NCBI GenBank assembly: GCA_021818615.1
Contig: JAKATT010000217.1
Location: 1 to 34,690, forward strand
Source of the DNA: Actinomycetes bacterium
Lineage (GTDB): Bacteria > Actinomycetota > Acidimicrobiia > Acidimicrobiales > Bog-793
Length of the DNA: 34,690 nt
Reading direction: 5' to 3'
Shown: piece after piece, positions 27,788 to 32,145 of the stretch
Position numbering within the stretch: position 1 is the first letter of the stretch
How the letters are laid out: the number at the start of each line of letters is the position of its first letter
The notes under the pieces: generated by a model
Seen by the model: only the letters and a program-made list of their open reading frames with translations
Told to the model about the DNA's origin: nothing
Database searches by the model: none
Translations under genes and position numbers: made by a program

Positions 27788-28150
27788 TCATTCAGCATAG
27801 GTTGACCCGTCGTGGAGCAGAGCCACATGGCCTTGACTCTGCTGAAGAAGGCCTTCGATCGCTTGGCCGTCGTCGAGGTCGAGCCCGCTGCGGTGGGTGT
27901 CGGTCAACTCGAGGGCCACCACCTTCACCGCCTCTCGCCAGCGCCCGGAGCGCTCAGAGAGCCATCGTCGCAGCGTGGCGGTACTTTTTCCCTTGAACAG
28001 GTGGATCACCTTGCGGCGATCGAGATCGACCAGGATGGTGGCGTAGATGGTCGGGTGCTCGGGGGTGGCACTCAGGAACCCGTGCTCGTCGACCCCGAGC
28101 GCACGTACCCGAACCACCCGTCTGGGGTCGTCCACGAGGGGGGCAGCCAT
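27788..28150 (-). pseudogene. ISL3-family transposase fragment
   Basis: RVRALGVDEHGFLSATPEHPTIYATILVDLDRRKVIHLFKGKSTATLRRWLSERSGRWREAVKVVALELTDTHRSGL; central DDE segment only. Confidence 0.75.
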
Positions 28151-28155
28151 GGAAG

Positions 28156-28825
28156 GTGACGACCGCCCAGGTCGTCTCCCAGCCGACCCCCTATTCGCGT
28201 GACACCGAGGCGACCGAGCGGCGCTGCTCCCCGACGACCTCGAGGCCCTGCTGCGCCGTCTCCGCCTGCCTCACATCCGAAGGAGCGCACCCGCGGCGCT
28301 GGCGACCGCCAAGTCCCAGCGCCGGAAGCCGGCCGAAGTGCTCCGCAGCCTGCTCGGAGAGGAGCTCGCCAGGCGGGAGCGGTCGGCGTTCGCCACCCGA
28401 CGCAAGGCAGCCAGCTTTCCGACCGGCAAGACCTTCGAGGCCTGGGATCAAAAGGCGTCCTCCATCCCGGCACCGACCCAGTCCGCCCTGCGCACCCTGG
28501 AGTGGGTACGGCGCCGCGAGAACGTCGTGGTATGCAGACCGTCGGGCACGGGGAAGACGTTCTTCCTCGAAGCCATTGGCCAGGCCGCCGTCGAGGTCGG
28601 CATCAAGGTCGCCTGGTTCGTCCTCGAGGATCTCGGCGTTCTCGTGCGGCGCCACCGGGCCGACGACACCGTAACGAGGGCCGTCGGGCGGATCCTGCGA
28701 TCGGAGCTGATCGTCTTCGATGACATTGGCCTGTTGCCGGTGAGCCTCGATGCGGCCGAGGGTCTCTACCGACTCGTCGACGCCGCCTACGAGCGGCGCA
28801 GCGTCGCCGTCAGCTCGAACCTGCA
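28156..28825 (+). pseudogene. istB: IS21-type IstB helper ATPase, 5' part (frameshifted, interrupted)
   Basis: LLPDDLEALLRRLRLPHIRRSAPAALATAKSQ...FPTGKTFEAWD...SIPAPTQSALRTLEW...PSGTGKTFFLEAIGQAAVEVG...LIVFDDIGLLPVSLDAAEGLYRLVDAAYERRSVAVSSNLH, then homology stops. The N-terminus lies in a different frame. Confidence 0.85.
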
Positions 28826-28878
28826 CCAGGTGAAAGCGCACACGTTCGGGCGAACCTGTGCAAGGCGGCACCTGAAGC

Positions 28879-30498
28879 TCACACGTTCGAGCTGGCGAGC
28901 CGGTCAGGATCGACAGTGTCGGCAACGTAGGCAAGGAGACCGCCGGCATTCATGCCGAGCGCCTCGCTGACGAGCTTGGGGTTCAGACTGATGAGGAGGT
29001 CGACGATGCGCGTCGAGCGCAACGTCTTCGTCGTGACGCCTGCTGGGTCGAGGACGTGGGTGAGATAGGCCGGTGACGCCGGAGTCATGCGTGGCTTGGT
29101 GACCTTGGTGACGATCAAGTGAGGGTTACGCGTTCCGAGCGCCTTTCGGTGCACCAGGCAGGCCTCCACTGCTGCCATCGATGCGGGGTCGAGGGGAACT
29201 GGGTGGGGACGACCCGCGACGCGGATGGTTCGACCGACCAGGTCGACATCGTCGACCCACAGCGAAGCGAGCTCGGAGACGTTGAGTGCGTGAAGCATCG
29301 CGAGCATGCCGACCACGGCTTCGTGGGGATGAACGTTGTCGCCGGTCCAACGCCTGAACAAGCGACGCTGCTCGGCGATCGTCAGGGTGGCCCCGGCGAA
29401 CCCCGCCCTGGGGGCGGAGGTGATCGCCACCGTGGGGTCGACGAGCACCAGCTTGTCGTGACGGGCCCACCGGAAGAACTGGCGAGCGGCGCTGAGACGC
29501 CGGCGCCGGTTCGCTGGCTGAGCGTTGAGGAACGCCTCGACATCGACCATCTGCACCAATGCCCAGTCGGTCTTGGCTCGTTCGCCGACGACGAAGACGG
29601 CGAGATCCCGGACATGGGCGAGCGCGCTTTCGATCGTCGAGTCCGATCGGACATGAGTGCCGGCACGCCTCGCGCGTTGTTGGGACCGGACAAGGTGTTC
29701 GCAGAACAAGGCCACCACCGGTCGCAGCAGCTCCGGGGTGCCGTCGACGCGCCGTTGTCTGCGGCCAGTGGCGAGCCGGGCTGCCTGGTCGAGCCCGAAG
29801 GCCAGCTTGTGGTGGACGAAGAAGTCTTCGAGCGTGCGGGCCAACGTGCCGGCCGATCGACCGGGCTGACGGGATCGCTCCAGAATGGCTTGCGGGTAAC
29901 GGGACTTGCCGTCACACAGCAACCGCCCGAGTGCGGTGATCATCACGCAGGCGCGACCCATGCAGTGGCGCTCGGCGGCGAACTCGGCGAAGTCGGCGAG
30001 CCACCACGGCGGGTTCTCGAGGCGGGCAGCGAGATTGTCGGCTTGGTTCCGGGCACGGTCAGGGTGTCGCTGCCAGCAGCGCCCGCACAGCAATCCTTCC
30101 CGTTTGGGGGCCAGTGCCCCGCACGCCGCGCACGGCTGGGCCGGCAGGGGCACCGGGCCGGGATTCGAGCAAGAGCCACACCAACCGGTCGTGGGCCGGA
30201 TGAACCCCGGACGCCCGCACCGAGGGCAAGGCCGCTTTGCCGTCTCTGCATCCCGCCGGCGCCGGCAGGCCCGGCAGCGCACACTGGACTTGAAGCGCAG
30301 CACGTGGCCGCAGTCGATACAGGTTCTCGAGCAGGTGACACAGCGACTCGTGTCCGGAGCCAACCGCCGGACACGCCCACACGTTGGGCAGCACGCCCGG
30401 CGGGCGGCCTCCGCGTCGGCGGCACGGCAGCGGTGGCACAGCTCGGTTCCCTTGCGGCCGATCCCGCTGCCACACCGGACGCAGTCGGCGATCCTCAT
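28879..30498 (-). CDS. Multi-zinc-ribbon protein with a degenerate tyrosine-recombinase C-terminal domain
   Basis: MRIADCVRCGSGIGRKGTELCHRC...CCPTCGRV...CVTCSRTCIDCG...CRACRR...CPRCGR...CGSCS...CAACG...CGRCW followed by a SAM-like and catalytic-like fold; the usual R/HxxR/H positions read N, KTLR and M. Confidence 0.8.
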   Translation of the reverse strand: MRIADCVRCGSGIGRKGTELCHRCRAADAEAARRACCPTCGRVRRLAPDTSRCVTCSRTCIDCGHVLRFKSSVRCRACRRRRDAETAKRPCPRCGRPGFIRPTTGWCGSCSNPGPVPLPAQPCAACGALAPKREGLLCGRCWQRHPDRARNQADNLAARLENPPWWLADFAEFAAERHCMGRACVMITALGRLLCDGKSRYPQAILERSRQPGRSAGTLARTLEDFFVHHKLAFGLDQAARLATGRRQRRVDGTPELLRPVVALFCEHLVRSQQRARRAGTHVRSDSTIESALAHVRDLAVFVVGERAKTDWALVQMVDVEAFLNAQPANRRRRLSAARQFFRWARHDKLVLVDPTVAITSAPRAGFAGATLTIAEQRRLFRRWTGDNVHPHEAVVGMLAMLHALNVSELASLWVDDVDLVGRTIRVAGRPHPVPLDPASMAAVEACLVHRKALGTRNPHLIVTKVTKPRMTPASPAYLTHVLDPAGVTTKTLRSTRIVDLLISLNPKLVSEALGMNAGGLLAYVADTVDPDRLASSNV

Positions 30499-30800
30499 AC
30501 CGGCGGCATGGAGCGTCCTCGCGCCACCTTGGGTTGCTCGCGCTTCGGCTTCGCCGGTTTGGTGACGGCGATAGGGGTCGTGTCGACCTCGAACAGGTCG
30601 TTCGGGGTGCATTCCAATGCAGTGCACAACGCAGCCAGCGTCGACAGCTTCACCTGCGACGGTTCCTTGGTCATCAACGCCGACACCGACGCCGCTGAAA
30701 GTTGCGTCCCGGCCCGCTCCGACAGCAAACGCCGCAGCTCCGCACCCGTCCACACTTCTCGCTGCGCGGCGGCCATCCGCAGCTTCCAGCGCACGTTCAT
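30495..30800 (-). CDS. XRE-family helix-turn-helix regulator
   Basis: MNVRWKLRMAAAQREVWTGAELRRLLSERAGTQLSAASVSALMTKEPSQVKLSTLAALCTALECTPNDLFEVD; ATGA overlaps on both sides. Confidence 0.85.
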   Translation of the reverse strand: MNVRWKLRMAAAQREVWTGAELRRLLSERAGTQLSAASVSALMTKEPSQVKLSTLAALCTALECTPNDLFEVDTTPIAVTKPAKPKREQPKVARGRSMPPV

Positions 30801-31857
30801 TCCTCCACCTCCAGCTCCGCGAGCGTGGTCGACACCGCCCGCCGATACGCGTCCTCGATGAACGTTGACGATGGCGTGACGTAACGCATAGTCGTTCCCA
30901 CATGCCAATGACCGAGCATCTGCTGAATCGCAACAAGATCGACTTCGCGCTCGTAGTTGCGGGTCGCGCATGCATGACGCAATCCGTGGGGGGAGAACCG
31001 CTCGACGTCCGATCGGCCTTCCAACTCGAGCAGATGGTGAAGCCGATTGCGGATCGTTCCTCGATGCAGGACTCCACCACCCTCGTCGCAGAACAGCGCC
31101 GTCGACTCGGCAATCCGCGGTCGGACGTCATCGAGATACCAGCGCAGCACCAGGTCGAGCTGGTCGAGCATTGGCACCCAGCGGGGTCTGGGCCCCGATC
31201 CACGCGCTGCCTTGCCGAAGCGGACGTGGATCTTGCCGAACGGGCCGCGATCGAAATGGAGGTCCGACTGCTCGAGCGACGCAGCCTCATCTGCGCGCAG
31301 ACCACAGTGATAGAGGGTCCTGAACAACGCATAGTCGCGGCCGGCTGGGCCAAACTTGCGAGCCGTAGCCACCCGGTCGCGCAAGAACCCGAAGAACTCC
31401 TCCATTCGCTCTGGCGTCGGCGGGGGACGGGTCGACGGTGACCCATCGTTGCCGACATGGCGAGCGGCGTTGAACTCGTCCACCGGATCGTCGAGCACCA
31501 CCCCGAACGTCACCTCGATCTCAGCCGCCTTGCGCGCCACCAAGAATCGGTGAAAGTCCTTGAACGCCTGCACATAGCCGCGGCGGGTCGACGCCGCCAT
31601 CCGCCGCGCTACGAGCTCACCGACGACGCGGTCGACGTCGTCCACGCCCGCCTCCCACGCTGGAATGCGCAGCAGCTCCAAGAAGCCTCTAACACGCCAG
31701 TGTTGTTCGCGATCGTCACCGGGCTGAAGCCCCGAGCCGACCACGACGCAACGAATGCCTCCACGCACGCCGCCTGGAATGCATCGGCGTCGAGCGGGCT
31801 CGCCCCCGCTGCAGCGGAGCCGGCAATCAGCCGCAAGCCACGACCGTTCACCTGCAC
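30797..31857 (-). CDS. Tyrosine recombinase/integrase with an apparent -1 bp frameshift near 31690
   Basis: Catalytic part: GLRADEAASL, GKAARGSGPR, HGLRHACAT, LGHWHVGTTMRY. N-terminal part MQVNGRGLRLIAGSAAAGASPLDADAFQAACVEAFVASWSARGFSPVTIANNTGVLE is in another frame. Confidence 0.85.
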
Positions 31858-31991
31858 ACCTTCTTCCCGCCACGGTTTCTAAAGGTGGCACCTAACTATT
31901 GCGCATGTTGCCTTGAGAAGCGCGGACCCTCGGTCAGCCCCTCTTTCCCCAGCCAGCAGCACGAATACCCGCGAGTGAACCTGTGCCACTT

Positions 31992-32145
31992 CCAGGTGGC
32001 TTCGACGAGCTCATGGCGAAGACACTGGCGAGCGCGACAGTCGGCCGGCTCATACACCACGCCCACGTCCGCGTCACGACCGGCGACAGCGTGCGGTTGC
32101 AGCAGGCGACGACCGGCACCGGTGAAGCCACTCACCTGAGGCTGA
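31992..32145 (+). pseudogene. istB: IstB, 3' part (detached C-terminus)
   Basis: PGGFDELMAKTLASATVGRLIHHAHVRVTTGDSVRLQQATTGTGE matches the canonical IstB C-terminus. Confidence 0.85.

Follow-up and report, generated by a model that had tools for sequence, protein, structure and literature searches.

A three-gene tyrosine-recombinase transposon family of Actinomycetota found mainly in istB, the helper gene of IS21 transposons

The window analysed here, a stretch of 34,690 nucleotides from a genome of the Acidimicrobiales, carries a mobile element of three genes that interrupts an istB gene and encodes a catalytic tyrosine recombinase, an XRE-type helix-turn-helix protein and a Cys-rich protein with a degenerate recombinase fold, here called ZnRec. 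The element is very probably a site-selective tyrosine-recombinase transposon, of which the window holds one copy of a family spread through the Actinomycetota, and the existence of the element and its target specificity are at least as secure as this overall reading. The family is apparently widespread in actinobacteria and apparently undescribed. Multi-protein tyrosine-recombinase transposons form a small set, which gains here a compact and recently mobile family that prefers to insert into istB, the helper gene of another transposon (IS21).

The whole element spans 28833..31997 on the minus strand (3,165 bp) and runs from its left end, 31997, to its right end, 28833, limits that are based on the conserved ends of the family and on the open istB frame obtained when the flanks are joined. 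The interrupted gene lies on the plus strand, its N-terminal part (28335..28832) containing Walker A, Walker B and the sensor-1 sequence SSNLHQV, and its C-terminal part (31998..32129) beginning with GFDELMAKTL. Removal of the element yields an open istB frame reading SSNLHQV^GFDELM, and the joined halves form a single IstB domain (PF01695, E 6e-40) that aligns without gaps to an intact istB from a related genome. The initial annotation had described three minus-strand genes with 4-nt overlaps between two istB halves, which is confirmed, and had drawn the element at 28826-31991 with the junction at SSNLH/PGGFDELM; the insertion into a split istB holds, but the element lies about 6 bp further rightward and the junction falls at SSNLHQV/GFDELM. 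A 7-bp target duplication (CACCTGG is present at both ends in the window) was considered and rejected, because it breaks the istB frame, which a flush junction keeps open.

Within these limits, the tyrosine recombinase gene (30797..31857, minus strand) carries the R-K-HxxR-H-Y set (PF00589, E 4e-25). The second gene (30495..30800, minus strand), which adjoins the recombinase gene in relatives as well, encodes a protein of 101 aa whose earlier assignment as XRE agrees with a match to HTH_26 (PF13443, E 3e-12). The third (28879..30498, minus strand) encodes ZnRec, 539 aa in length, in which a Cys-rich, zinc-ribbon-like N-terminal half is joined to a tyrosine-recombinase fold without the first catalytic Arg and without both His. 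Elements of the family measure ~3.2 kb and contain three genes. In many Streptomyces copies (e.g., L034-L062), the interval from ZnRec to the right end contains an additional ~0.4-1 kb of DNA, which in one copy (L017) holds an annotated GNAT acetyltransferase gene, a possible cargo.

The ends of the family, a left AnnTGG, a right GTGCGCTTT and 11-bp arms, are conserved in 67 left and 80 right ends. Read in the orientation of the element, the left end of the relatives compared consists of A-n-n-T-G-G, five bases and GCACnnGTTC, and the right end of GCACnnGTTCG, a short core, CGAACnnGTGC and GCTTT. The corresponding parts in the window, all on the minus strand, are the left-end 6 bp ACCTGG (31992..31997), which from its position and its flanking inverted arms is the probable overlap (crossover) sequence; an 11-bp arm, GCACAGGTTCA (31976..31986), 5 bp inward of this block; and a right end (28833..28861) with two inverted 11-bp arms (28838-28848 and 28851-28861) and GCTTT at its edge. 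The possibility that the right-end arms act as a folded single strand was set aside, as the hairpin of the window folds no better than shuffled sequences (z -0.04), although one perfect copy does fold better. Two near-palindromes also lie on the minus strand near the ends: AGGTGCCACCT (31883..31893), at position 105 from the left end, and AGGTGCCGCCT (28863..28873), adjoining the right end. A near-palindrome resembling AGGTGCC(A/G)CCT is found at 104-105 from the left end in 50 of the 55 copies compared and ~40 bp from the right end in 15 copies, with 0.16 per copy elsewhere, and it is the natural candidate for XRE binding.

Evidence for mobility comes from natural empty sites. The copy on a plasmid of Rhodococcus sp. 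NJ-530 (L006) is an insertion of 3,218 bp relative to pN9T4-2, and that of L021 an insertion of 3,175 bp relative to pRWAY02, each pair of molecules being 100% identical over 3,250 bp on each side, and a third copy (L004) has an empty twin istB on its own plasmid, identical over 266 and 234 bp around the point of insertion. At the natural empty sites, zero bases are duplicated and zero are lost. Recent movement is likewise indicated by copies that are 99.97-100% identical in different istB genes within one strain, as in L034/L035 (3,663 bp, 100%), L006/L007 (3,218 bp, 100%) and L068/L069 (3,307 bp, 99.97%), all at different sites, and by a pair that is 100% identical over 3,181 bp across species (L010/L084). 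A comparison of the trios from actinobacteria, empty istB sites included, shows that they do not occupy a fixed locus, and the proposal that they form a self-contained mobile unit is borne out by the exact empty sites and the identical copies in different istB genes. With its R-K-HxxR-H-Y set, defined ends and mobile history, the element is a tyrosine-recombinase transposon in the broad sense. Neither a circle joint nor tandem copies were seen in 40 genomes or records; in ordinary assemblies no circle joint would be expected.

Most copies lie in istB at one position and istA often adjoins on plasmids, as would be the case if the trio were the cargo of one IS21 lineage, acquired once within istB and spread by IS21 transposition and descent. 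This explanation is nonetheless rejected as extremely improbable, since exact empty istB sites exist and the relationships of the elements do not match those of the istB genes. An element that moved solely with an istA/istB host would not be expected in the arrangement of L068 and L069, where the same element, 99.97% identical, lies on one chromosome in two IstBs that are merely 34% identical and have none of six bases in common to the right of the junction, nor flush within IS256, ISAzo13, PLD and DUF2637 genes.

Among 54 copies with both ends and flanks, 47 lie in istB, six in an IS256-type (PF00872) transposase gene and one in a DUF2637 gene, and the joined target frames are all open; as the loci were gathered via the third protein, this tally is free of search bias. 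The 47 istB insertions fall at one codon, directly past the sensor-1 Ser-Asn, in very different istB genes, and the IS256-type insertions lie between a Gly-Glu and an Ala-Lys motif. Other targets are PLD-like genes and an ISAzo13-type transposase gene, the latter in a genome from the same family as the window. In a tree of ZnRec that was built by a quick method, with good support for 32 of its 64 inner branches, copies with IS256 or PLD targets fall in parts of their own and those in istB make up the remainder, a pattern from which target choice appears to be heritable with a few switches. In one Streptomyces copy (L100, Streptomyces sp. Ru62), the left and right flanks come from two different istB types, which suggests a rearrangement between copies.

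Relatives occur on 56 plasmid records found by tblastn and at 77 genome loci, nearly all in Actinomycetota, that were recovered from GTDB genomes with an alignment-based profile of the third protein, whereas a single-protein query (P0003) confirmed no relatives. The trio is present in 2 of 398 sampled genomes of the phylum, that of the window included, and a search of phages gave no match. Several assemblies include contigs that have almost exactly the element's length (L040, L065, L078, L084 and L085), as expected when a repeated sequence collapses in assembly. Two Streptomyces linear plasmids (L011 and L023) carry a divergent trio, with ZnRec ~38% identical and ends without the GCGCTTT motif; this trio adjoins a truncated gene for a TnsC/TniB-like ATPase, itself preceded by a Mu-type transposase. 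A contig of 1,177 bp that is filed under Pseudomonas viridiflava (L103) carries a piece of ZnRec and is probably contamination.

The junctions also carry information on how the element may move. At the left istB junction, CCAgcC of the target and GGcTGG of the element are arranged as an inverted repeat with the element's ATCTGG at its centre, a position that makes these 6 bp the probable overlap. In all copies seen, which represent 46 distinct istB and 5 distinct IS256 target sequences, the 6 bp of the element lie on the left and those of the target on the right, and a right end followed by the element's 6 bp was found in none of the copies compared. An unbiased two-strand exchange followed by replication should give the two arrangements about equally, and the constant placement is therefore read as a strand-biased exchange. 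In the proposed pathway, the catalytic recombinase would excise the element as a circle with the joint CGAACnnGTGC-GCTTT-[6 bp NNNTGG]-NNNTG-GCACnnGTTC, that is, 11+5+[6]+5+11 bp; for an intact copy of the L006 or L034 type, the predicted joint is GTGCGCTTT-ATCTGG-...GGCTGGCAC or its like. The circle would then recombine with a related istB half-site across the 6-bp overlap, with no need for the overlaps to match, and exchange with a preference for one strand would result in a left end with the 6 bp of the element and a right end with those of the target. Probable roles of the XRE protein are repression of the operon or assistance in the assembly of the complex at the fixed palindrome. ZnRec probably fills the non-cleaving place in the synapse and helps to choose the target, and the three proteins would be used heteromerically.

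Such a strand-biased 6-bp mechanism, as judged from the junctions, is narrowly probable. Less probable, though a serious alternative, is a transposon of the kind described that uses ordinary two-strand recombination, its constant 6-bp placement resulting from later repair or selection. Exact empty sites suit cut-and-paste as well as copying, and Tn916-type integrases also tolerate mismatched overlaps; yet unbiased resolution would leave about half of the copies in each arrangement, and the placement is identical in all of them, with none reversed.

The integrase domain of ZnRec gives a weak (degenerate) match, and a sequence search in the PDB gave no meaningful match. A predicted model built from 24 sequences (mean pLDDT 84), in which the arrangement of the domains is uncertain (pTM 0.35), matches the folds of XerA, lambda Int and Tn1549 Int in a fold search. 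Across the aligned sequences of the family, Ser, Thr or Asn mostly stands in place of the first catalytic Arg, HxxR has lost its His, and all 13 sequences of the first alignment have Met at the third His position. By contrast, the second Arg (R494) is invariant, the Tyr (Y524) is invariant or nearly so and many Cys are nearly invariant. Comparison of the ZnRec profile with that of the active recombinase was not significant, so that it is mainly the order of the motifs that locates the lost residues. ZnRec thus has a recombinase fold that lacks key catalytic residues family-wide. As the loss is common to all copies of a live family, it argues for a structural or targeting role rather than decay, and whether that role is in targeting is evenly poised.

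In its gene set the family differs from the known systems that it most resembles. Like SEs, it is a multi-protein tyrosine-recombinase element with a recombinase-fold partner that lacks catalytic residues (Tfp in SEs), imperfect inverted repeats at its ends, a 6-bp spacer and few selected targets. SEs circularize with strand bias, and recombination between their ends leaves no empty site behind; for the trio, a probable bias is read from the junctions. SEs, however, are gammaproteobacterial and combine two catalytic recombinases with Tfp and Srap, in contrast to one catalytic recombinase, XRE and ZnRec in a family that is nearly all from Actinomycetota, and the intA, tfp, intB and srap gene set is absent from the trio and its relatives. 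When SEs move, 6 bp of the donor site are also carried over to the right side of the new one, whereas the trio keeps its element-side 6 bp unchanged within a clade, and the empty-site comparisons show an exact restoration of the target's 6 bp. Tn554 and the actinobacterial Tn554-like elements (PMC3414803) share with the trio three genes and site-specific insertion without target duplication, but Tn554 encodes TnpA, TnpB and TnpC, the first two of which carry the catalytic motif, and a Tn554-like pair of long and short recombinases in L021 has little or no similarity to the trio. RIT elements are likewise mobile and have three overlapping genes for recombinase-like proteins, but RitA, RitB and RitC are all tyrosine recombinases, whereas here the second gene encodes an XRE/HTH_26 protein and the third a degenerate recombinase without the catalytic residues. 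The earlier statement that this was not recognised as a classic RIT or Tn554 trio is upheld by both gene sets. GInts resemble the trio in high target specificity and in GinC, a recombinase-like protein without the first Arg that stands beside catalytic ones, but they comprise four genes with two fully catalytic recombinases, form islands of up to 76 kb and are bounded by imperfect 10-11-nt direct repeats (PMC5385486). The gene content of the trio is not that of a ginABCD operon with three integrases, and no direct repeat is present at the exact empty sites. No match to a described element family was found, nor any account in open-access full text of a tyrosine-recombinase element aimed at istB, with priority still to be established against subscription papers, ISfinder and TnCentral.

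Taken at its fullest, the evidence would describe a hyperparasite family of Actinomycetota, a three-gene transposon in which a catalytically dead ZnRec steers the one active tyrosine recombinase to the codons for sensor 1 in the helper ATPase genes of IS21, and which, by a one-strand-biased, scarless exchange across a mismatched 6-bp overlap, spreads through other transposons and inactivates them; this full account is as easily doubted as believed. As the ends have been mapped to the exact base and the flanks of two copies match natural empty sites over kilobases, the role of non-catalytic recombinase-fold partners becomes directly testable. Exact insertion without overlap homology into a common, dispensable target could also interest builders of actinomycete integration tools.

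The copy in the window is probably defective, unless its assembly is in error. The initial annotation gave its recombinase as one gene with the full motif set, which is indeed present, but 31857->30797 is 1,061 nt long and not one open reading frame, roughly the first 57 residues lying in another frame; alignment to relatives, the closest being L033 from an Acidimicrobiaceae assembly (ZnRec 67% identical), places one missing base near 31685. The host gene does have the IstB domain expected of an IS21 istB, but no istA was recognised among the open reading frames of the window, which makes it an orphan. Whether the copy is a decayed relic without any activity, and the trio there a fossil, is finely balanced. 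The frameshift, the orphan istB and a genome in which no second copy was found are in keeping with decay; against it, XRE and ZnRec have open frames, the two ends agree with the consensus of the family and, in a genome assembled from a metagenome with 86% completeness, the one-base gap may be an error of assembly. If it moves at all, a copy with an orphan istB and a frameshifted recombinase would do so solely in trans.

Several smaller features of the window and its relatives may be recorded. Next to the right end, positions 28827-28832 read CACCTG in the orientation of the element and encode Gln-Val in istB, where the related istBs of this type that were seen have Pro-Ser codons. At the right junction of a Streptomyces copy (L052, Streptomyces sp. 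8K308), the istB flank seems six bases short relative to L045, a deficit that has the size of the proposed overlap and lies in the same place as the odd CACCTG. Rare traces of an alternative strand outcome, a donor footprint or errors could account for both. A minus-strand fragment (27788-28150) immediately upstream of the orphan istB resembles, by eye, part of an ISL3-type transposase. Elsewhere in the window, positions 675-861 consist of a perfect 13-bp tandem repeat, CAGGCCAGGGAGA, in 14.4 copies with 100% matches.
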